Positions 6,000 through 53,761 of a DNA stretch of 64,000 nucleotides are shown piece after piece. Below the pieces are notes generated by a model that was not told the DNA's origin, did not search any database, and saw only the letters and a list, made by a program, of their open reading frames with translations. The stretch is from Pseudopyrenochaeta lycopersici (lineage: Eukaryota; Ascomycota; Dothideomycetes; Pleosporales; Pseudopyrenochaetaceae). The position numbers and the translations under genes were made by a program. Position 1 is the first letter of the stretch. The number at the start of each line of letters is the position of its first letter. The stretch is taken from positions 248,001 to 312,000 of the forward strand of contig NHZP01000011.1 in NCBI GenBank assembly GCA_003313425.1, read 5' to 3'.

Positions 6000-7440
6000 T
6001 ACACGGCTCATGTAGCTGGGATGTGGTTACATTTCTTTCATTTGCCTTCAAAGTCCGCTCGGCGGTGAAGCTCTCCAGGTGAATGTATGATAGACCACTA
6101 TTGAGTTCTCCTCACCATCCGCGTTCATCATCTGTAATATTAATATCCATATCCTAGCGAGAGACTTGAACATGAGCCTTATACTGAATAGCAAGAAGCC
6201 TAGCACATGAACATCCGCCAGTATCAATCTTACAGTCTCAAGCACGAGAAGTACTTTATGCCCTGTATATGTATCTATCTGCAGTCCATAACGAAACAGT
6301 TGTAAACTGGTTTGTATCTCTCAATCGAGATATTGCAACAAATGAGGAAGTATACGGCACTGTCCTGCATGTTTTGATCGAAGACATGGACGGGATGGTT
6401 CGACGGTAGTTTCAGCAAGGCAATCGAAACCTGCGCGAACTTTATCGAACATCGGGGCGAGCTTCTACGAAAAAAAGCCCTTTGCAAACTAAATAAATTG
6501 CTCAGTATCGATCAAGAGAATGGATTCCGGGAAGCGGGGTACGCTGGGATGAGTATTGCTCGACAGCCTTGTATGCTCGCCGTTGACACATCGAACACTA
6601 GAGCGATCTATGTTTGCTTGTGGAAGCTGTCAAATAAAGGGATTAAGACTATGCCATTTCGAAAGTTACAAAAGTTTCGGTTGCCCAAAGTCTTATCCCC
6701 GCTGGTGATCAAGGCTTGGCAATTTGGTGGGTTGTGCTGGGATACCAGATATGTCGTATGACATGCCTTCCAAAAGTCGGACAGATCATCCAATTCATGC
6801 GGTGGCTAAATATGATTCATTTTCAAAGCAATACCATGTGGACCATTCTCCTTTTCATTTACCACCTAACAAATGCCTTCAGTATCCGTTGTTACAAGCT
6901 CATAAGTTAGCGGACATCAAATCTTCAACGTCATTCAGGAGTGTGAAAACGCGTCATCGGCGATGCCAAAAAAAGGGCGAATTCTCAAGCAAGAACATAT
7001 TCGAGGATGATATATTATCCTATGCAAGTGTAAACAATTCCTCATCGCCTCTCGTTCCCACAATTTCAAAGCGAAAAGATTGAGATATTCCCATCAACGC
7101 AAAACCGGTTGATTTTGCGAAAAAATTAATCAAACATCAGGAAAGCAAGTATCTCTTCCTTCATGAATTTCGTGCAGCGTCTAGGTATCCTATTGGCACA
7201 AGCTGTTCTCCTGAACACAATACTTGCGGTCAACATCACGCTGCCCCGTGCCGAATGAGTAACCACAGATTCAAACACTGTACTCCATACCGTGTACTAC
7301 CCATTGTCCACACTACTGCTAAAACCAGTCAACAAACCCGCTAGTCCAAAGAGTCACACTTCATTAGTCCCTCCTTCGCACTCGAACTCTCCACCATCGC
7401 CTTGCGTAGTATTCACACCCCAACCTTCCCACTACATAAG
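6000..7440. other. Intergenic stretch
   Basis: 1.4 kb with no supported gene. An open frame at 6751-7083 (110 codons from ATG) is Ser/Lys-rich, without recognisable domain or the family cysteines, and I leave it uncalled. The 3' end of the interval leads into the trinucleotide repeat at 7451. Confidence 0.35.
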
Positions 7441-7450
7441 CAAGAAGCAA

Positions 7451-7622
7451 GCAGCAGCAGCAGCAGCAGCAGCAGAAGAAGAAGAAGAAGAAGAAGAAGA
7501 AGAAGAAGAAGAAGAAGAAGAAGAAGAAGAAGAAGAAGAAGAAGAAGAAGAAGAAGAAGAAGAAGAAGAAGAAGAAGAAGAAGAAGAAGAAGAAGAGAAG
7601 AGAAGAGAAGAGAAGAGAGAGA
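7451..7622 (+). repeat. (GCA)8-(GAA)40 microsatellite with GAGAA tail
   Basis: Perfect GCA repeats at 7451-7475 (8 units) run into perfect GAA repeats at 7475-7596 (about 40 units), followed by a GAGAA pentamer tract to about 7622. The strand is pure purine for ~145 bp and ends one base before the ATG at 7624. It will therefore lie in the 5' UTR or proximal promoter of member D. Open frames across it encode only Glu, Arg, Lys or Phe homopolymers and are artefacts of the repeat. Confidence 0.95.
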
Positions 7623-7623
7623 A

Positions 7624-8088
7624 ATGCCATTCATCGACATCAAATCATGCGCCCTCTACCACAACGGCTGCAAAAGCCAGTGCACAAAACCCAGCAATAC
7701 CTTCTGCCACACCTGCTCGACCGACCACCCCTTTTCGCTGCGCAAAATGATTGCCGAGAAACCCAGACTCGCCCCCCTCTTCGACGAAGTCATGGAGAGA
7801 AATACAGACTACGGAACTTGTGTGTCTCGTACATGGCGCTATCTCGATGCGCCGTGGGTGCCTATCCTGATCGCAGCGCGTGTCGAGCAAGACATTGCGG
7901 AGCGTATGGTGAGTGCGAAGAAGCTTGATTTCAACGTTGGTTCGATTGTATGTACGCGCAATATGTGGCCGGATGTGTTGTGTGAGGTGTGTCTGCAGGT
8001 GTTGTCGGTTGCTGACGAGAAGTGTTTTGAGAGGTATTTTTGGCAGGATGGCAGGGTCAAGATTTTAGAAAGATTGGACAGGGTGTAA
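7624..8088 (+). CDS. Cysteine-rich family protein, member D (one C-terminal module)
   Basis: Intact 154-aa single-exon frame from ATG 7624, directly after the purine microsatellite. The N-terminal finger is Cys9, Cys16, Cys28, Cys31 (C-x6-C-x11-C-x2-C), identical in spacing to member C. One C-terminal module carries CTRNMWPDVLCEVC (C-x9-C-x2-C) followed by F-E-R-Y-F. It is the shortest complete member. The conserved cysteine grid, the Y-F terminus and the tandem order show common descent with the genes at 2349, 2899 and 5328. Function unknown. Expression may be sensitive to repeat length because the (GAA)n tract abuts the start codon; that is inference. Confidence 0.65.
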   Translation: MPFIDIKSCALYHNGCKSQCTKPSNTFCHTCSTDHPFSLRKMIAEKPRLAPLFDEVMERNTDYGTCVSRTWRYLDAPWVPILIAARVEQDIAERMVSAKKLDFNVGSIVCTRNMWPDVLCEVCLQVLSVADEKCFERYFWQDGRVKILERLDRV

Positions 8089-41016: not shown

Positions 41017-41061
41017 GAGGATGCAGGCCATGTGACCATAAGTAGGCTAAGACATGGCATG
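41017..41061 (+). repeat. Left terminal inverted repeat
   Basis: Pairs with 53717-53761 in reverse orientation. The inner 13 bp (AAGACATGGCATG) and the central TGACCAT are exact; differences elsewhere include transitions. The distance from the target duplication is the same at both ends. Confidence 0.85.
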
Positions 41062-41116
41062 CCAAGATGTCGGTGCACGGCGCTTGTTTAGTGCGCTAAG
41101 AGAGTATATGTAGGGC

Positions 41117-41149
41117 GAATTGATTTCGAATCGGTTCTGAATCGATTCT
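41117..41149 (+). repeat. Subterminal triple palindromic unit that keeps its CpGs
   Basis: Three adjoining 10-bp units, GAATTGATTT, GAATCGGTTC and GAATCGATTC, separated by single bases, about 100 bp inside the left end. The intron copies elsewhere in the element read GAATTAATTC or similar, that is, the same unit after CpG-to-TpA changes. It lies upstream of the plus-strand gene. Confidence 0.75.
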
Positions 41150-41246
41150 ATCAAAACAACAATCCCTAAACACCGCAACACACACCACTAATTACATCCA
41201 CAACACAACGGCATAGCTGCCAGGCGCCGCACTACTGTCCTTGACA

Positions 41247-42002
41247 GTAATATATGTGTTCTATATATTAAATCTATTTTAAATTAATTCCTAATTAATT
41301 CTAGCCCGACTATAAAGCATATCGCCGGCTGAATACCCTCCCTATAGGTATTAGTGCCTTTAATCTTAACAATAATGCCGCTCTAATCGTGCATGTTAGC
41401 AAGGTTATGTGCCGCTAGCATATTAGTGGCGGACATCTCTGCGGTGTATAAATTAATTCAGAACTAATTCAGAACTAATTCTAACTAAGCATAGCGTCGG
41501 TTCTCTGCCCGTAGGAACTTAATTAACTACCTCCGCCGCAACTATAATGTCCTCGTAGTCTCTCCCTCCGCTTATAGAGTTGGAATCCTGCCTTAGCCTG
41601 TAATTTAAGCTAAGATGTGTAAGTATGTTAAATTAATTTAGAATTAGTTCCTAACTAATTTTAGTGTAGTACGGAACTATTATAGCTGCCTACTAAGTAT
41701 AAGTAGTACCCCTCCTTACTGCCCAGGCTAATATTACTGCCGCCTAAGCTTTAGTGCCGCAGCCGCCTCCCTAGGCTATAGTGTTGCTTCCTGATAGTTC
41801 TGTAAGTTAAATTAATTTAAAATTAGTTCTAAATTTGTTCTAATAACTTTACAGCGAGATCTAGTCTATATGAACGCCGCCTGCTACGCTATTGGTGGCC
41901 GCCAGGTTCCATGCGATACTTGCATGTCTAAAGAGGATAATAATAATATTAACGGTTAGAATATGCTCGAATTAATCCTAAATTAATTGCTAATTAATTT
42001 AG
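41247..42002 (+). repeat. Homologous introns of transposon gene 1 (plus strand)
   Basis: 41247-41304, 41444-41494, 41619-41664, 41802-41854 have GT...AG ends, branch-like CTAAC/CTAAT and 46-58 nt length; 41961-42002 has lost the donor G. Each consists of two or three AATTAATTC/GAACTAATTC units between donor and branch site. Confidence 0.75.
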
Positions 42003-42076
42003 GATACACGTTCTTCTAGACTAGTAATTTCTGGAGGTGTAAGAATAGGGGTTTATAAGTAGAGATAATTGCGGAG

Positions 42077-42082
42077 GATACG
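42077..42082 (+). repeat. Target duplication of the gypsy element, left copy
   Basis: GATACG, repeated at 49120-49125 directly outside the other LTR. Six bases match; five would be the usual length for the group, so one may be chance. Confidence 0.75.
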
Positions 42083-42471
42083 TGTAAAGAATCTTAAAAG
42101 CTATTAGTAAGGATAGCTAATAAGATTGCAAGGTTAGTTCTCCAGGATAGAGTGAGGGACTAGATAGAAGAGGGTTTAATACTAAGATAGTAAGAGAGCG
42201 CTTCTGTAAAGAGTACTAAGGGTTAAGAATAATTAGTATTACTATTACTATACTGTAGAGTATAATATTAAGTTAAACATAATAAGCTATAAGGGTTCAT
42301 TGTGGTAATCTATATACATAGAGGTTATGCATGTTACTCAGTGTGCTCTGTGTGCTCAGTGCCACTGATCAAACTAATTAACTGAGCACGTCACGTGACC
42401 TTAGTTGTTAGTCTAATACCTGTGAGGTCTAGTTGGGGCTACTAGGGCAGGGTCCTGGCAGGATCGTAACA
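42083..42471 (-). repeat. LTR (3' LTR with respect to element orientation)
   Basis: 389 bp, TG...CA ends. Differs from the other LTR at 18 positions by hand count, every one a transition. Confidence 0.92.
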
Positions 42472-45174
42472 CCATCCCCCTCCTGTCCTAGCGCTGTCCT
42501 CAGTACTTATTATATAACGCGGGCGTTTCCTACTTCTTACCGCATTATGTCTTATTATGCCTAAACATCTATAAGTGTCTAGCACTATTCGTTACTAACG
42601 TCTCTATAATTTTATTAACTTCTTTAGGGAAGCTATAGTTTAAAAGTGCGCGACGTGCGCGAAGTATAATTAGGTGTGTAAGGTCTATATTTATTCTAGG
42701 AAATATAGTAAGTGTCTGCGTTAAGGGTAACGTTGTAACGTGCAAGTTACAGAGTCTAAATTTAAACGATTAGTAGATTAGAAGACGAAGCTTTAGGAGC
42801 AGATAAAAGAATCTAGGAATGCATAAGAGGTTGTGATAAAGGCGCATAAAAAAGCTCTAGAGGAGCTGCGCGTTACTTAGGCTTATAAAGAGTAGTTATA
42901 ACAATAAATAGATTTAATTAATTAGCGCGCAGAGGAAGTAATAGCTGTAGAGGAACAAGACATTAAGGAGCAAGAAGCAGCGGAGGCCTTGTTGCCTGAA
43001 AACGCCTCTAATGCTCTTAGGTTTAGTTTATTGCCTAGTACTTAGGGTGCGTTTAAAGGCTTCTCTCTTGAGTATTAAGAGGTCTTAGCTAGCGACGGGC
43101 CACTGGTGGCGGGTCTGTTAGTCTCCTCTAGCTCTTAACGTTTCTTAAGGTTTATTTGCTTCTTCTTTTTCTTTTCCTCTCTTTCTTAGTATTCTCTAAT
43201 TTTTTCTTAACAGTTTCTTAGATTTTCTAGTGGTTCCTACGTACTCTCTACACTTAGGTACCCTTTCTATTTAACTAGGTAGCTAAAGCTTGGTTCTAGG
43301 TCGTTAGTTCTTCTGTTTCGTTAGTATCCCTAAATTTTCTTAACTTTAAACTTATTTTCTTCTTCTAGTTTATACTAGAATGTTTTTTATAACAGTGTAG
43401 CAGGGTTAGCTGGTTCCAATTTAGAGATATAGAAGCATAGGTGAATCTTTGCATCTAGTAGTAGCTTAAGTATATAGTTTACTAGTCTATCCTATCCTTT
43501 AACTAAAAATAGTCTGACTTTGACGTGATTAAGTCCCTTACTTAGTCGCTTGTTACGTAAGTTTTTTATAAGTAAGTATGCTTTATCCCCCTTTTTTAGC
43601 TGAGGTGCCTTTTTTCTTTTCTTATTTTAGTAGGAAATACTGTTACGTTATGCTTTCTCGAGGTTTTCTTAGAGTTATTTATGTACTTTCTTTATTTCTT
43701 TAGCTGTTTTTATCGCTGCTTTAGTTTTTCTACTAGGATATAATTTTATAAAGAGATTAAGGTGTCTCCTGTAGTTAGCAAAGAATAGTGTCTTTCTAGT
43801 TAATTCTAATAATTTGTTATTATAGGCTAGTTGCGCTATTAGTAACAATAAGACCTAATTATTTTGTTATTAATTGCTGTAAATTCTTAGGTAGGTCTTT
43901 ATCGTTCTGTTCGTCCTTTCTGTCTGTCTGTCTGTTTGTGGGTGATAGGCTGTTAATAACTTTCTCTTTATCCCTATTGCAGCTATTAGGGTAGACTAGA
44001 AGTTAGATGTAAAGAGCTTGTCTCTATTACTTATAATAGACTTAGGTATGCTATAATATTATATTAGTCTGTCTAAGATAATAAACGCTAGTTATTCTAT
44101 ATTATAGTCGTTTCTAAACGGTATTATTTCTACTACTTTTGTAAACCTACAAACTATATTAAAGATAGCGTTATACTTAATTCCTGTTGCGGGATCTTTA
44201 GACAGTAGTAACCCTGTTATAAAGTCTATAGAAATGTCTGCCTAAGGTTTATTGGGTAGCTCTATAGCTTGCATTTCTCTGTAGAGTGCGTAGGTACTGT
44301 ATTTATTCTTATAACAGTCCGCGCATTTTTTAATAAACTGTTTAACCTTAGCCTTTATATTCTTAAAGCTGTAGTGTCGCTGTATTAGTTCTATTATTCT
44401 CTTAATTCCTAAGTAACTATATACTAGGTTATTATAGTGTTATTAGATAATTACTTCTTATAATTCTTTAGGTACTTCAGACGTAATTATTATAGTGTTG
44501 TTTAATAACTTATTAGGTCCTAAGCTTCTATCCTAGTTTACTTAAAGGATAGCATCGCTAACTATTACTTTCGTTCCTGCGATGTCTAATCTGCGGCTAA
44601 GAGCGTTAGCTCTACTGTTATCCTTTCCTAGCGTATACACAATCTTAAACTTATATTGTCCTAACATTTCAGCCTATCTAACCTATCTTTAATTTAATGT
44701 TTTAGTAGTAGTAAAATAAACTAAGTTCTTATAATCTGTAAATATTATAAGATCTAAGTAACTTTCTGCGTAGATCCGCTAGTGGTTAAGGGCGTTAACA
44801 ACTACTATAAGCTCTTTGTCATGCACATTGTAGCGTTCCTCAGCGTCTATGAATTTTCTTAAGTAGTACGCGATTAGGTGCTATTTTCCATCGCTTTCTT
44901 ATTTTACTGTTACACCTAGTGTAAGGTCTAAGGTATCTGTTTTAAACTGTAAGAGTTCTCCTATCTAGAATATAATTAACACTAGTAGTATAATGCAGGC
45001 TTCCTTAAGTATCTAGAATACTTTTCTTTATTTATTTCCCTATTTCTATTATGTATCTTTCCTTATAAGTTTAGTAAGTAGGATAGATTTTTTAGAGAAG
45101 TCTTTAATAAATTATTAGTTAAAGTTAACAAATCCTATAAATAATTATATATCTTTAACTATTTTAGGTTTAGG

Positions 45175-45420
45175 CTATTCTTTTACTACTCTTATTTTTT
45201 CTTTGCTTATCTTTACTCTATATGTACCTACTGTATATCCTAGGAATTTAACTTCCTCCTTATAGAACTCGCATTTCTTAGGTTTAAGTAGTAAACTAAA
45301 TCTCCCTAGGCAGGTAAGAACTGTTTTAACATGCTTAATGTGTTCCTGTAGGTTATTAGAGTATACGAGGATGTTATTAAGGTATGCGATGATAAATATA
45401 TCTAGGTGTTCTCTTAACAC
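45175..45420 (-). pseudogene. Reverse transcriptase fragment of the gypsy element
   Basis: The only sizeable open frame left in the element, 81 codons. It shows the reverse transcriptase palm with Y-L-N-N-I-L-V-Y-S at 45358-45384, where active enzymes have Y-L-D-D; both aspartates have become asparagine by G-to-A changes. Downstream KPKKCEFYKEEVKFLGYTV is typical of gypsy reverse transcriptases. Confidence 0.9.
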
Positions 45421-47873
45421 GTTGTTAATGAGTGCCTAGCATGTAGCTAGTGTATTAGTAAGACTAAAGGGTATTACTGTATATTTATAATAGCCGTAGC
45501 GTGTTCTAAACGCAGTCTTCTATTCTTTACCTTCCTTTATGTAAATAAGGTTGTACGCTCCTCTTAAGTCTAATACCGTAAAGACTTTTGTAAAAGCTAG
45601 TTAATCTTGTAGCTCCGCTATATTTAGTAGAGGGTATTAATTCTTTATTATAATGTTGTTAAGCTTTTAATAGTTAACGCATAATCTTAGCTTCCTATTC
45701 TTTTTTAGTACGAATAGTATAGGGTATCCTACTAGCGACTGTAATTCCCTAATAAATCCTTTTTTTAAGTTTGTCTTAATATATTCGCGCAGGGTTTTAA
45801 GTTCTTTTTCTAATAAACTGTAAATTAGGTTAAAAGTTAGTTACTTTCCTTCTTATAGGATTATCTTATGATCCTAGGGTTAGTGCTTAGGTAATGCTTT
45901 TGTAGTTATCTCTTCCTAAAAGAGTAACTTATATTCTTTATACTTGTTAAGGATTACTAGAGTTACGCTTTACTCTTTAACTCTAGCTTATTAGTCTAAG
46001 GGCCTCTTATTAGTACCTGCTAAGTTGGACCCTTATGTCTTGAGGCTGTCCTTATTTAAAGTAAGGATCCTAATCGTTATCTTCTTATCTACCTAGGCAC
46101 TCGGCCGTAGTGTAGGTTTACTTGTAGTTGCGTCTGTTCTACAGCATTTAAATAAGAACTTTTTCCTTTTCTAATCTATGTCTAGACTATGTTCTCTTAA
46201 CTATAGGAGTCTTAGTATTATATTATACTATAATAGTCTAAAGACGTCTAGGTTAATCGTTTCCCTATAGTTCTAGATAATAAGTTACACGCTCCGTACT
46301 TCGTGTGTGATTACAGACTCTGATAGCATTGGCTGTCCATCGGCGACTGTTAATAGATATAGTACTAATTTTAACGATAGAATAAGGCTAGCTTATTCTA
46401 TTACTCGCGTAGAAATATAGCTCTGTTATGCTCTAGAATCTACTAGTGCCTTTATCTAGCTTCTATTAAGCTTAATATTTAGCTTAAGGAGTCCTTATAT
46501 GCCTATTGCGTATAAGGTTCGCGGTTCTTACCTATTAGTAGGCGTAACCCTAAAAAAGGCTCCTCCTAATACCTGTTTAATGTCTTAATATCTTTATGCT
46601 TAAGGTAGTTAGAGTTAAGGTACGTTTACTATTACTACTAATTACATTCTCTATTAAAGACTAACTGCATCGCTATAGTAGCTGTAGGGTTATTATTTCC
46701 TAGGAAGTAGAGGACAGTCCTCTTATCCTATAGGTAGTTATTGTATTTAACTTTAGGACAATTATACTATTAGTATTTACATTAGTAAAACGAGTAAGGG
46801 AAGTATCCCTATTCTGTTTTACTTAAATAGTGTATAGCGCACAGGTCTGTAGTATAGAAAGACTAGTAGATAACACCGTGTCGCTTATTGCGTGGATCCA
46901 TTAAGTAGTCTAGTACTAGTTTCTGTAGTCCTTTGCGCATAGTATGTAGGGTTTAAGCCGCCTCTGCGCGCTTATAATAGTTTCTGGCTTCTTCCTCTGT
47001 AAGTAGCTAGTTAGGGTTAACGTTCTCTTTATCGTCCTCCTAATGTATTTATTATTTAAGCTAGGTATAGATATCCTGTTTCTTACTGTCTATAAGCACA
47101 ATCTTGCTATAGGAGTTAACTTAAAGGTACCCTTATTATACTAGGTCTAGAGTATTAGGTATATAGAAGGCGTCTTCCCTTGTTAATAGTGGCATTATTT
47201 GGCGTCGTGATATATATTTAGGGGTCTTAACTACTAGGGGTTCTAGTACCTATGTTTATCTAGCTTGTTAAAGTTTTTATAGTGCGTCCCTAACGCTTGC
47301 AGGTTACTATACTTCTTTAGCTCTTTCTGTCTACTCTTAGGTTGCCTTTGTATAATGTTCGGGGTAACAGTAATGTTCCCGCAACATGTCTTGTATCGCT
47401 TATTTAGCTAGAATAATTATACTTATTCCTTATTTTATAGCTGCTTCCTATTCTTCTAGGGTTAACGCGTTAATATATTATGCTTTATACATGTGTTGCG
47501 TGTATAGTTAGCGGTTAAGTTCTATAATATCTTTTTCTGCCTCTGTAGGCGTTAATAGCCTTAGGGTTCCTAGTTAATATTAGTTCTAGAAGTTTTCCCT
47601 TTTTTAATCCTTAGTTAAAAGCACTATAGTATTATTAAGGTCTTCCTTAGCATCTTTATAGACTAGGGACAGGGAGCTGTTACTCTCTTCTTCCTTATCG
47701 CTATACTAGGTTCCTAGAATCCCTTTCTTAGTAGGTTCTAGGAGAGGTGGCTGTAGCGTCTCTTTATCTTAAGCCCTTTCCTCTCAGGTTACGACGACTT
47801 CCTATATTTTATTATTGCTGTTTTCTTCTTTTACGGCTAATATGTTAATCTAGGGGGTTACCTTATTCTTTTA

Positions 47874-47918
47874 CCTGTAGTCCTTAGCTATATAGCCTTT
47901 CTTATTGCAGTTAAAGCA
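47874..47918 (-). pseudogene. Gag zinc knuckle, damaged
   Basis: Reads C-F-N-C-N-K-K-G-Y-I-A-K-D-Y-R. A functional knuckle needs His and Cys at the two tyrosine positions; both replacements are single transitions. Confidence 0.8.
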
Positions 47919-48730
47919 GGTTATTTCTTTTTTCTTCCTGCCCTTACCTATCTTTTCCTTATTAAAGTTATCTAGATGTATTGCCTTAGGGCCTCCTAAT
48001 ATGTACTACCCAGGCACTCCTTATAGCTGCTACTAATATTATAGGTAACTATTATTTAGCTTATTACAATAGTCCTTCTAGGGTTTCTTATCTTCTTTTG
48101 TTTATCCTAGTAGTTGTCTTTTAAGTCGTATACAGAGCTTATAGAGTTCTATATCTAGTCAGATAGTTTCGTTAATTAGGTTATTTAGCGTGTTAATACC
48201 TATGCTAGAGCGTATTAGTTTAGTCTAAACGTCCGCTTTTAGGCCTTGCTTATACATAGTTTTTAGGGTGTCATTGTTCTAGTTAGTTTGTCTAGTATAC
48301 CCTAAAAACTTATTAGCGTAATTAGCTGTAGACTAGGTTTGTTGCATGTTCTAAATTTTACGTTCTGCGATAGTAGTCTCGTTTAGTAGTCCAAACGCTT
48401 ATCGCATGCGTGTCTTAAATTCCCCTGTGTCTTTAAACATCTAGATTAGCTCCTTAGGTTTAGTTCCTTTAGCTAGGTACTTAACTAGGTAAAGCTTTAC
48501 CTATTTAGCAGCTTCGCCCCTTATGTAGCTTATTATAAGTACTGCTTAGTTATCGTTATTTATAGTAGTTATATTAAACTTAAAGAACAGGTTAAATTAG
48601 AGTAACTATTCTTTGAGCTTAAACTAATCTCTATAGAAGAGGTCTGGTTTAGCAACAGCGTTGCCTGGCCTGGTAGTATAGTAGGCCGCGTTTTCTATAT
48701 AAGTATTACTTATCTTAAGGGTGTTTAAAG

Positions 48731-49119
48731 TATAAAGAATCTTAAAAGCTATTAGTAAGGATAGCTAATAAGATTATAAGGTTAGTTCTCTAGGATAGAG
48801 TAAGGGACTAGATAGAAGAGGGTTTAATACTAAGATAGTAAGAGAGCGCTTCTGTAAAGAGTACTAAGGGTTAAGAATAATTAGTATTACTATTACTATA
48901 CTGTAGAGTATAATATTAAGTTGAACATAATAAGCCATAAGGGTTCATTGTGGTGATCTATATACATAGAGGTTATGCATGTTACTTAGTGTGCTCTGTG
49001 TGCTCAGTGCCACTGATCAAACTAATCAACTGAGCACGTCACGTGACCTCGGTTGTTGGTCCAATACCTGTGAGGTCCAGTTGGGGCCACTGGGGCAGGG
49101 TCCCGGCAGGATCGTAACA
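48731..49119 (-). repeat. LTR (5' LTR with respect to element orientation)
   Basis: 389 bp, same length as the left copy; the outer TG has become TA on the plus strand. Confidence 0.92.
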
Positions 49120-49125
49120 GATACG
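49120..49125 (+). repeat. Target duplication of the gypsy element, right copy
   Basis: GATACG, matching 42077-42082. Confidence 0.75.
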
Positions 49126-49299
49126 GTAGTGCAGGCAGAGGAGCAAGCAGTAGAGCTAGAAGAGCATAGCAGCTCTGAAAGCTCCACTAGGCTCTCCTCT
49201 ACCCACCTATCTATCTTCTCTGCCTTTACTAATTAAATTAATTTAAAATCGATTTAAAAATAATTCTGAAATAAATTAGACTTTTTAGTCCATTCTAAC

Positions 49300-52200
49300 T
49301 TCTAGCTTTAGGCTATTATATAGCTGAATAAAAAGCACTCTATAATTCTAAATATCCTTCCCCTATTTAAAGTACTGTCTATTAATATATATACCCTTAA
49401 GTAAACACCCTAAATTATTTGTTAATAAATTTAGAATGTATTAAGCTTAAATAGTACGTACTCTTAGCCTTTCTCTTCTGATAATTCTTACAAGGTGTAG
49501 GTATATTATGTAAGAGTAGTAATCTTTAAGTCTCTTTATAGTTAATCTGACCCTTTTTCTACCTCTTACCCTTATTAGAAGTCTTATAGTAAGGTGTGTT
49601 AAACTGAAAGGGACTGGCATAAGCATCCTCTTTATAGGATAGAATTAGTTCTAAATTAGTTCTAAGTTTATTCTCTATCTGCTTATCGCCTGCTGCTTCC
49701 TCTTTACTGTTTCCAGTTGCTGCTACTGCTAACACCTCAGACATAGCTAGAGGAGGCAATAATGCATCTTCTTAGTGTTGTGTCTGAGATTACTCTAGCA
49801 TAGGAGGCGGTTGTTAGGAGAATTAATTCTTAATATCTTCTATATGCTTATAATAGAGGGCTATTACTCTTTAGATATACTTAAGGGCACTATGTGTACG
49901 TTTAAGAGATAAAACTCCTGCAGGAACTGGAGAGAGTTTATATTGTAGATAGATGTTGCGCATATAGTGTGCAAGAGCTCCCCTTAAGCTGAATTTACGC
50001 TAAATTAATTTAGAATTGATTGAAACACAAGGGATTAACATACAGAGTATAACATATTACTACCCTTAAAGGTAGCCTGACAGAATAGCTCGCCTGCATA
50101 GATTATATATTGGCCCTGGCTATCCTAAAGACTAAACTCTGTTGACCTAGCTAGCAGAGAAGGAAGGGAAGCATATTGTTAGTACACCGGCTAGATTAAT
50201 TAGGAACTAATTTAGAATTAATTCGCGCTTGCTTACATAAGAGGAGAGTATTTTACTAGTTATCGTTAAAATGTTGTTGTAGAGAGGTCGCTTAGAAGAC
50301 AGAAGATATTGTTGTCTGTTTGTATCTAGTGCGGAAAACTTTTTACTATGCTAGACCTAACTAGGTTAGTATTAGAATAGGATATAAACTAGTTCTGAAT
50401 TAATTCCCTCCTTAAAATCTACATTTCTAATTGTAACTGTGCTTCGCGTGCTCTAAGCGCTAAATCAACTTCTTGTTATTCTATATAGAACTCGCGTTTC
50501 TTACGTTTAAGTAATGCCCTCTCCCTTTTAACTCAGAATTCTTTACGCTCTTGTTTAAGCGTTTAGCTACACGTTAGGCTAGCTTACTTAATTAGTTTAT
50601 AATGTATTCTGAATTAATTAAGAGCGCTCTGCACTGTATAGTAGGAGCTGGTGAAGACCCTGCTAGGGAACCTTGTAGAGGAGAAGATTCGTAGGACTTT
50701 CCCTGTCGTGCCCTTGACGCTCTTCTTCCTTTAGCTGAACGAGAGCGCCGTGCCCTACTTAAACTAAAGTTTTTAAGGCTCTCTAAGATATTCTTAGTAT
50801 TATCTAATATTTGGTGAATATCCGCCTTATAACGTTCTAATTAACTTAGAATTGATTCGGAATTAGTTTCAATGTCACCTACTTATCTCTCTCCCTATAT
50901 TCTGATAATACTGAGCACTAAGAGTGAGGTTTTAGCGCGACCTATGTCTAATACTATGTTTATCACGAACTTTATACTCCTAGATATCTTACATATCTAT
51001 AATTATAGCCCTGTAGCATTTAGAATTAGTCTAGGACTAGTTTAGAATTAATTTACTTACATCTTAATTCCTTCGAGGAGCTTATGCCTAGTTCCAGTAC
51101 AGTATCCCTTAGAAGCAGCTTGTTCAACAGCATTAGTGTAAGACTCTAGAGTATCCTAAGCAGCTCTAAGCATATTATTGCAATAGTAGTTAAGACCTGC
51201 TGCAATAACTAGGTTCTTCTTATGTTTAACCCAATCCTTAATAGCCTGGGATGCCGCATTATCTTGAATTGATTTAGAACTAGTTACGAATCTATTCAAT
51301 GGGATCTTACCAGAGATTAGGTCACATAACTTAAAATACTCTAACTGTGAGGTAGCTGTTAGGAGAGCCTTTATTCGGCCCTAGTTAGAATCTTCCCTGT
51401 GAGTAGACTAAGGACAGACTTTATCAATCCCGCGTAGAAAATGAATATAGCAGAACTGAAGGCAACAGCTAAGCTGGTACTACCATGACCTGTTACGTAG
51501 GTCAAGCCTTAAGAGATATTGACTGAATCCTAGCAAGAATTAGCTCCGAATTGATTCAGAACTAGTTCGCCTACTAGCCATTTGCTTTGTATCTATATCT
51601 ACTGTTACACCTACCGCACCAGTTCTATTCAGGTATATCTAGTTAAATGATACCCTAGTAAGATGCGCATAAACAGCAAAGAATTCTGTAAACGCCTTCT
51701 TATATATATCTAAGGTTTGCGCATTTATAATTATACGCCTAAAGGTAAAAACTAACCCTAATTAATTACAAGCTAATTTAGACTTAATTTAACTTACGTT
51801 TCCTATACTCTATAAGGAATAATGCAAACAGTACCTTAGACTAGTTATCCTAAAATCTCTTAAAAGATATATTAATTTAAAATGTATTCTAGGTTGCAAG
51901 CATTAACGCTTAGTCCTTAAAGAGGCAAATTATAATATCCCTAGTTATTGCAGGGAGAACGCGCTATATATATGCCTAATTTACGTAGAATTAGTTCAGA
52001 ACTAGTTTAGAATAGGTTCTACTAAACGTACTGTAGAGGGTTCTGTATAATGCGTCTTCTATTCAAATAGGACCCCTTTAAGTCTACTACCGTACAGGAA
52101 TATAAGTAGCCACTTACGATGAACTAGCCTTGTAATTTAGTCTTTATCTATGAAGGCTATATAGAAATCTTTAATTAATTTATACCTATGCTGCTGCAGA

Positions 52201-53500
52201 TACCGTAACAGAGCTAGTAATTTAAGGAATTTAGCTGGAACTTATTTAGAATTAATTCAGAATAAATTTAATTATTATACCTACTTCTTATTATACCTAG
52301 GTGCAGGATAGGCTGTAAAACCTGAAGAATATCTCCTGTATGGTCCTGATCTATAAGCCATGGTAGTAGAGGTATATAAGTGTGTATACCAGTTAATACT
52401 AGTATAAGATACAGGACCTGAGCTGTATTTAATAGGATAATAATGTTAAATATAACATTACAGCCTCGTTTTATTAGTGTTCCCTGTCCTTAAATATAAT
52501 CTGTGCCTAATCTTAGTTAGAATTAATTCGTAATTAATTCAGAATACATTACCACACGTCTGTAATCGTAAGCACTGTGGTTTAACTACGTTACACTATT
52601 CTTGACGAGGCTCAGAGAAACCATCTAGCAGCGTTTGTAGATACTTAATATCTAGGGCAGGAACTCGCTGGAGTAAATAAGTCTCTGTCATACCTCTAGT
52701 CTAGTTCTGGCATCCTATAAGCTACAGTGGAGATCTAGTTAATAGCTGAATTAGTTTAGAATTAATTCTAAATTAAATATTAAAAACTTACTACGCCCTC
52801 TGCTCTATATAGCCTTATGCTATAGGATAGCTTTCTTAGGGTACAAGCTGTCCTAAAGCGTTAGGATAAGCTATTAAAGTAGCTCTTTACCTTTCGCTTT
52901 CCCTTATTATTCTTAATTTAAGATAATAAGCTTTTAATCTCTCGTAGCTTTGCGTATAATACTGTGTCTACCTCTAAATAGGAGATTAATTTTAATTTAT
53001 TCTAAATATATTTATAATGTTTAATCCCAGAATATTTAAGTACCTAGCGAAAGGCCTAGGTATTTAAGAAGGGGTAGAATGTAGGCTTCTTGCCTACTTT
53101 ACTAGCCTTAGAGTATTAGAACTATCTACCCGCGAATTAGCTTAGAACTAATTCTAAATTAATTTACTTTACATACACTCTTTATGCGCTGTAATAGACT
53201 ATCTTAATTAACACCCTGTCTGTATATATCCCTTAATCATATAATATAGGCGTAGCCTGTCTTAGCTGTCTTTAGGTATTATAGGATTGTAGCTGTATAC
53301 TCTATAATATTAGCTTAGAGTGCGTTATTCTTATTATTACTACTTATAATAACAGCGCGATCCTACTCTAAATTAATTCATAATTAATTTAAATCTAATT
53401 GTTACACTTACATAATACTAGTCTGCACCCTCGTGTGGTATATCATCTTTAAGGTCTACAGCTACTCTACTACTGTTTATCTCATCCTGCGTACTATTAG
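49300..53500 (-). pseudogene. Transposon gene 2, large intron-rich putative transposase (decayed)
   Basis: Reading the minus strand across about 18-20 short introns gives a long protein with stops almost only as TAG/TAA/TGA. Recognisable stretches include NTAQVLYLILVLTGIHTYIP (about 52350-52420), LLALLRYLQQHRYKLIKDFY, VLFALFLIEYRKR, FTEFFAVYAHLTRVSFN, GVTVDIDTKQMA (about 51580-51615), FCYIHFLRGIDKVCP, DNAASQAIKDWVKHKKNLVI (from 51262), LESYTNAVEQAASKGY and a basic coiled-coil C-terminus (about 50800-50430). The D in TVDID, the following Cys/His block and the E in NAVEQA are arranged like a DDE core; a Mutator-like transposase is my inference. The exon-intron phases agree at nine consecutive junctions tested (53126 to 51011). 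Ends are approximate. A residual open frame at 49559-49759 belongs to the 3' part. Confidence 0.65.
49989..53411 (-). repeat. Homologous introner-like introns of transposon gene 2 (minus strand)
   Basis: Introns with both GT and AG ends: 53363-53411, 53126-53176, 52746-52791, 52507-52552, 52235-52284, 51976-52031, 51758-51797, 51530-51574, 51263-51310, 51011-51060, 50191-50236, 49989-50043. Degenerate copies lie near 53567-53611, 52985-53020, 50825-50870, 50590-50640, 50375-50430, 49640-49690 and 49225-49290. Length 40-56 nt. Each holds two to three copies of a GAATTAATTC-like unit, with the last one often overlapping the branch site as TTCTAAC or TTCTAAA. Spacing between them is about 200-270 bp throughout. 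Confidence 0.8.
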
Positions 53501-53716
53501 ACTTAAAGATATCTCAGTCTATAAGTATATGTGCAGTATTAATAGTTAGAAATAAGGTATTTATTGTAATTAAATCAGAATGAATTTTAAATTGAGTTTA
53601 AATAGATTCAAGCCTTAAAAACACTGTGGGCGCTAAATACCCTAGTAGACACTAATGTCTTCGCATGGCATAAAAAAGTCTTAGCTGTCCTCTTGGACAA
53701 CCTGAAATAGTTAGGT

Positions 53717-53761
53717 CATGCCATGTCTTGGCATGGTCATGGTCAGGTGGCATGCCACCAC
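53717..53761 (-). repeat. Right terminal inverted repeat
   Basis: Reverse complement begins GTGGTGGCATGCCACCTGACC and pairs with 41017-41061. Confidence 0.85.

Follow-up and report, generated by a model that had tools for sequence, protein, structure and literature searches.

An evenly spaced series of triple-dyad modules, mostly in short predicted introns within genes, along a DNA transposon of Pseudopyrenochaeta lycopersici

The transposon and its copies

The window analysed here is a stretch of 64,000 nucleotides from the ascomycete Pseudopyrenochaeta lycopersici (assembly GCA_003313425.1, contig NHZP01000011.1, positions 248,001 to 312,000), situated on contig C11 of a genome of 62.7 Mb in 188 contigs. 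It contains a DNA transposon (41017-53761, no strand assigned) which runs from GAGGATGCAGG to CCACCAC, is interrupted by a long terminal repeat (LTR) retrotransposon, and carries gene 1 on the plus strand at the left and gene 2 on the minus strand at the right. Twenty-seven modules of 32 bp, each made of three 10-bp dyads, are found along this transposon, and we regard it as an even bet that the module is a cis-acting DNA element, i.e., an array of predicted binding sites. The original prediction had given the element an extent of 41247-53411, corrected here, and had described repeated short introns of one design inside a DNA transposon; this description is borne out by the 27 modules and by 16 intervals with GT and AG ends, presumably spliced in vivo.

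Two further near-complete copies occur in the same genome (C24:257335-263519; C68:76159-81353 together with 88388-88898). Direct repeats of 9 bp, read by eye from the flanks, bound the window copy (AGCCCACTC) and the C24 copy (TCCTTCACC), directly adjoining the element in these two of the three copies; in C68 the right repeat lies, also by eye, 9 nt away from the element. In that copy (L043/L044) the right flank repeat TGACTGGTG is shifted nine bases (GTTCGCCAC) off the element end, like flanking DNA carried along. The target site duplication (TSD) of Mutator-like elements (MULEs) is 9-11 bp long, a range that includes the 9 bp of the two copies with directly adjoining repeats. Together with the motifs CYIHF and TNAVEQ, recognised by eye in gene 2 exons E9 and E10 (51061-51529, minus strand), this length suggests a putative Mutator-like transposase. 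The genome has 111 matches to the PF10551 profile (MULE transposase), of which none falls at the element coordinates on C11, C24 or C68, where damage by repeat-induced point mutation (RIP) may hide it.

Among the three copies, 575 of 5702 compared columns differ. C/T or G/A transitions account for 562 of the differing columns, 399 being in CpA/TpG context, from which the copies are taken to be RIP-mutated. Of the three, the window copy is the least AT-rich; a GC-richer array is present in a relative on C34, described below. The LTR retrotransposon inside the window copy (42081-49119, no strand assigned, about 7 kb) has a repeat pair of at least 300 nt and 97% identity and a 4-bp overlap at its insertion site (42077-42080 and 49120-49123); C24 and C68 are devoid of it at the corresponding place.

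The C24 copy carries a 474-nt insert of its own (L042:4120-4593), with inverted ends GGGTGGCAAATGGG and CCCATTTGCCACCC and flanking matches overlapping by 8 bp, perhaps a hAT-type miniature element within the transposon. The segment 40950-40994, some 20 bp beyond the left end of the window copy, is itself a dispersed repeat with 31 other genome matches. A 30-nt segment of the LTR element (45261-45290) is 93% identical to one in a gene 2 exon (50484-50513), by chance or as a shared fragment.

A 32-bp module at an even pitch

The modules were located by scanning for three 10-bp units RAAYNNRTTY at an 11-bp period. Nineteen of the 27 score at least 36, against a best score of 35 (mean best 30.1) in 100 first-order Markov resamples of the element, and the cut for a single unit (11) is reached in 24, 27, and 22 of the 27 modules at unit places 1, 2, and 3; none of the 27 reaches it at any of the four flanking places where a fourth unit could stand, four values there reaching 10. 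Chance in AT-rich sequence, an objection that the original prediction had itself raised, is ruled out for the 19 strong modules by these resample scores and flanking places. The remaining 8 modules score 32-35, which by score alone is the chance range, yet sit where the spacing predicts; their support is position and splice context. In an alignment of 22 modules in the direction of the gene, without the five of the middle region, the module holds 1.10 bits per column, a figure inflated by selection because the modules were found by this very motif, vs. 0.07 and 0.11 bits in the 40 bases upstream and downstream, figures free of such inflation. Common sequence is thus confined to the 32-bp module, the flanks having hardly anything in common and the distance from donor to module being variable, so that multiplication of the intron itself, as earlier supposed, is not supported.

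The dyad symmetry is carried by positions 2-5 of the unit (pair matches in 62, 56, 44, and 48 of 66 units), position 1 matching in just 27 of 66. The unit form GAATTAATTC is seen as described before; the prevalence of transitions among the three copies makes it at least partly a product of RIP decay, and the C34 array suggests that it derives, at least in part, from a GC-containing dyad close to AACCGGTT. All modules are present in the alignment of the three transposon copies, and a sequence model trained on 16 modules of the window together with one array from C34 found no match in the window outside the transposon at E 1 or better.

Successive module starts lie 152-282 bp apart (mean 208, coefficient of variation (CV) 0.17), while random placement gave a mean CV of 0.80 and was never as even in 10000 trials. 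The 19 strong modules alone have a CV of 0.39, equalled by 4 of 10000 random placements; the wide gaps between them approximate double steps, and it is there that the weak modules fall. Module density is constant throughout the transposon.

Predicted introns, relatives and modules elsewhere

Intron orientation follows the gene, as had been anticipated: a GTRNG donor lies at most 24 nt upstream of 12 of the 16 right-hand modules in the minus-strand sense of gene 2 and of none of the 16 on the plus strand (background 0.11-0.12), and on the left of 3/6 modules on the plus strand and 0/6 on the other; in the middle region the counts are 2/5 on the minus and 1/5 on the plus strand. YAG acceptors follow 14/16 right-hand modules in sense vs. 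4/16 on the other strand, counts of little weight because the background is 0.65-0.70. The window copy has 16 intervals that begin with GT and close with AG, in agreement with the earlier figure of at least 16 introns; gene 1 has 5 of them and gene 2 has 11, instead of 4 on plus and 12 on minus.

On the plus strand, module 41117-41148 lies between the left end and gene 1, with no recognised intron. It is followed by intron candidates GTAATA..TAG (41247-41304, module 41270-41301) and GTGTAT..TAG (41444-41494, module 41450-41481), the predicted introns GTAAGT..TAG (41619-41664, module 41630-41661) and GTAAGT..CAG (41802-41854, module 41809-41840), an exon with an open frame (41855-41954), and a last candidate GTTAGA..TAG (41955-42002, module 41969-42000). 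The exon carries the cysteine-bearing piece ACYAIGGRQVPCDTC, with no Pfam match. Splice motifs and this one open exon are the basis for the strand of gene 1; minimum-stop sums per single segment (10 plus and 6 minus on the left) speak against it and reach 39 plus and 37 minus on the right. Counts of this kind were discarded as uninformative strand evidence, so the strand of gene 2 is set only by its chained frames and by homology with C34.

Gene 2 is given here in its own direction, all on the minus strand. Module 53578-53609 lies upstream of the gene, with no recognised intron; intron candidates GTAAGT..TAG (53368-53411, module 53370-53401) and GTGTAT..TAG (53126-53178, module 53134-53165) follow, the latter an in-phase candidate for the E1/E2 junction, where such candidates exist, and then module 52982-53013, the E2/E3 junction offering no GT-AG pair in phase. 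The phase fits for the predicted introns GTAAGT..CAG at E3/E4 (52746-52791), GTAATG..TAG at E4/E5 (52507-52552, the top-scored donor GTGTGG giving equal length), and GTAGGT..CAG at E5/E6 (52235-52284). Candidate GTACGT..TAG (51976-52031) is, with that donor, out of phase with the chosen exon frames, and candidate GTAAGT..TAG (51758-51797, E7/E8) is in phase only with a farther acceptor at 51739 (59 nt). The phase fits again for GTAGGC..TAG at E8/E9 (51530-51574), GTAAGA..AAG at E9/E10 (51263-51310, 48 nt long and open, so that retention keeps the frame too), GTAAGT..CAG at E10/E11 (51011-51060), and GTAGGT..TAG at E11/E12 (50837-50882). At E6/E7 and E12/E13 phase is reached with weak donors only, the splice sites of module 50589-50620 being uncertain. 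Beyond these, module 50375-50406 has a GTAGAT donor upstream and a branch-like TACTAAC downstream, and candidates with ends counted by eye are GTAAGC..TAG (50191-50236, module 50193-50224), GTATGT..TAG (50000-50043, module 49991-50022, whose weak third unit lies partly past the acceptor), and GTACGT..TAG (49410-49461, module 49412-49443). A weak module of score 32 (49820-49851), a probably exonic one (49642-49673), and one with uncertain splice sites (49235-49266) complete the series.

Seven of the 12 gene 2 junctions tried thus join their exons in a continuous frame, three in the run E3-E6 and four in the run E8-E12; the agreement over nine consecutive junctions claimed before was not reproduced. 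Each run contains 8 stops. The two remaining sense frames have 25 and 28 for E3-E6 and 24 and 42 for E8-E12, and no plus-strand frame has fewer than 17 and 21, respectively; the stops of both runs are exclusively TAA or TAG, the type expected from RIP. Random cut lengths give as few stops in 0.036 (E3-E6) and 0.011 (E8-E12) of trials, near 1/27 and 1/81, and cuts at random places in 0.0006 and 0.0090, all four figures being optimistic since the splice sites were chosen with the frames in view.

Independent support for the chained frames comes from a relative at C34:166310-166687, homologous to gene 2 from E10 onwards (35% identical, E 3.3e-8): its tblastn alignment has a gap at the E10/E11 junction, where the C34 DNA has a GT..AG stretch, with phase 2 in both. 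The frame requires for this first C34 intron the acceptor TTAGAG, two bases past TTAG, which aligns by eye with TTATAG in another relative, C110. By eye, E11/E12 corresponds to the second C34 intron, with phase 1 in both (in the window by arithmetic from lengths), so that both of the intron positions testable against C34 are shared; this second intron contains the GC-richer array GAACCCGTTC-A-GAACCCGTTC-A-AGACATGTTA, in which the third unit (AGACATGTTA) is degenerate.

The equation of modules with introns holds for most of gene 2; modules 41117, 53578, and 49642 lie outside recognised introns. The first two, upstream of the first recognised exons, may lie within a long 5' intron. Module 49642-49673 shows no splice sites in any of the three copies; in the window copy it forms an in-frame part of 70 stop-free codons (49562-49771). 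It is probably exonic, its coding nature being suggested by the open frame alone, without backing from homology. Units also occur in a derivative of the transposon at C17:366820-367765, which matches only the two ends, about 85 bp each, is too short for the genes, and contains 19 sites that match the unit with one mismatch or none, some of them close inside the two ends. This derivative (L045:1516-2466) shows, over 950 bp, an extended series of units of 11 and 20 bp together with the two transposon ends, and could be an array amplified without genes.

The genome was scanned with two unit-pair patterns at up to 3 mismatches, whose counts are lower bounds, as more diverged arrays would escape. 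The GC-rich pair GAACCGGTTCTGAACCGGTTC gave 4 matches, representing one place on C34 (both strands), the window copy and C24, with none in the control; the mutated pair GAACTAATTCTGAACTAATTC gave 30 (10 in the window copy, 7 in C24, 10 in C68, 2 in C17, and 1 in C22), with 2 in the control. Subject to these limits, the array is a feature of this transposon family, which contains 33 of the 34 matches (4/4 and 29/30), and the confinement originally proposed stands; a genome-wide introner in host genes is unsupported by the same patterns. The sole match of GAACTAATTCTGAACTAATTC outside the family (C22:923933-923953, 3 mismatches) is at about the control level.

A binding-site array and its alternatives

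On the reading of the module as a cis-acting array, given even chances, a dimeric DNA-binding protein, encoded by the transposon or by the host, would dock three times per module; since the dyads lie about one helical turn apart, the dimers would sit next to one another, all on the same side of the helix. Modules follow one another along the whole transposon at intervals of about 208 bp, roughly the nucleosome pitch, and because the in-gene modules mostly sit in short introns, the sites could run through the coding region without altering the protein; splicing would accommodate the array rather than cause it. Its likely role would be to mark or open the transposon chromatin along its length, in a VANC-like anti-silencing, or to coat the element for transposition; both the binding protein and the chromatin role are inferred, and that the cysteine-bearing product of gene 1 might bind the array is speculation. 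The even pitch, the placement in introns, intergenic and terminal parts and the units in the C17 derivative make such an array a better fit than a self-copying intron. It is further supported by the dyad symmetry of the units, by the end of conservation at the module edges, with no fourth flanking unit at the cut, by the C34 array in an intron at a corresponding position, and by the concentration of matches in the transposon family.

The nearest precedent is the sequence-specific anti-silencing of VANDAL21 by VANC21 in Arabidopsis (Hosaka 2017; PMC5735166, PMC10398659). VANC21 recognises a short motif, often tandemly repeated, and accumulates in introns and in intergenic and terminal non-coding parts of VANDAL21 (PMC5735166). 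The likeness lies in a family-specific short motif repeated many times in such parts of one transposable element family; the motif there is YAGTATTAY in variable repeat number, whereas here a 10-bp dyad is repeated in threes at a pitch of about 208 bp, in a fungus and as predicted sites. As for the putative protein, the GC-richer unit GAACCCGTTC is near the palindrome AACCGGTT bound by Grainyhead-type (Grainyhead/CP2) homodimers, a similarity of motif only, and the Neurospora GRHL has a specificity similar to factors of this type (PMC3348937); the accessible text of that source mentions no triple array with an 11-bp period. No description of such an array was recognised in the available portions of the literature.

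Several observations weigh against a binding-site array. Modules have a constant three units, with agreement among the three copies, whereas VANC arrays vary in copy number between copies; the near-exclusively intronic placement of the in-gene modules is equally expected from an intron-creating element; and the long unit run in C17 may be a secondary expansion. Units of the same module are not clearly more alike than units across modules (the observed value is attained in 350 of 5000 shuffles); homogenisation in tandem local to a module was likewise not supported by these shuffles. A strict scan found the array in one of the two C34 introns and in none of the C110 introns, the others showing dyads by eye only. 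Protein searches are equally unhelpful: eight pieces of genes 1 and 2 (two sets of four) matched no Pfam family, a PDB search with one 154-residue piece of gene 2 gave no match, and a protein database yielded no homologue, the 7991 candidates with most shared words being scored at E 0.01 and 48 at E 1. Four other fragments gave in Pfam one sub-threshold match only (E 0.053), taken as chance; a weak protein match on C3 was dropped as apparently of low complexity, and an Rfam scan of the window gave no matches.

An unlikely but serious alternative is an introner-like array, i.e., a short intron inserted repeatedly in the nucleosome linkers of an ancestral transposon, leaving evenly sized exons, and confined there. 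Work attributed to Huff in 2016 reportedly described nucleosome-sized exons in algae. The even spacing and the gene-direction donors at 12/16 right-hand modules fit such insertion, and similar short introns repeated within genes at linker-like spacing are described as introners in Pezizomycotina (PMC9860276, PMC4457414). This alternative keeps its share because a linker preference is reported for introners, with a bias predicted in 104 of 132 introner-containing genomes by a source that also describes fungal introners without TSD and terminal inverted repeats (PMC9860276). Unlike those introners, the modules have none of their kind in host genes by the two pattern scans, 33 of the 34 matches falling in the transposon family; the homology is limited to the module and does not span the intron; and modules lie outside recognised introns, with units in C17 as well. 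Moreover, the three copies align at all modules, and the two testable intron positions are common to the diverged C34, so these two introns are not recent gains.

A function in the RNA is improbable. Three dyads might help very short introns of ordinary, old position to splice, by pairing of units 1 and 3, possible at 164/220 positions with G-U counted, or by providing branch sites, as the third unit often leads into TAAC..AG; such pairing is, however, expected anyway because each unit is near-palindromic, modules or units occur in non-intronic places, and the even spacing is left unexplained.

In known cases such as Ac/Ds, En/Spm and P, transposase-binding sites are confined to the element ends. 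Slightly more improbable still is an inward spread of subterminal transposase-binding repeats with no chromatin role, which would agree with outermost modules that begin about 100 bp inside the left end and 150 bp inside the right one, and with the units just inside both ends of C17, but not with a constant density throughout when known cases keep their sites at the ends. Galileo has several binding sites inside the transposon, those of its transposase lying in terminal inverted repeats (PMC3688188), whereas the modules here, as predicted sites, run throughout the genes.

Carried further, the reading as a binding-site array would make this nucleosome-pitch ladder of triple binding modules, with in-gene rungs mostly intronic, a fungal self-encoded anti-silencing or anti-RIP chromatin system, a step that we regard as possible though doubtful. 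The array would give a reason for the transposon to keep many short introns, namely room for evenly pitched DNA sites in coding sequence; if true, VANC-like anti-silencing would reach beyond plants, and the element would offer a natural test of whether exon size on the nucleosome scale can follow from a DNA-binding array instead of from the insertion of introns.

Elsewhere in the window, 7292-8088 is a triplet-repeat tract with overlapping open reading frames containing long poly-E and poly-R runs.

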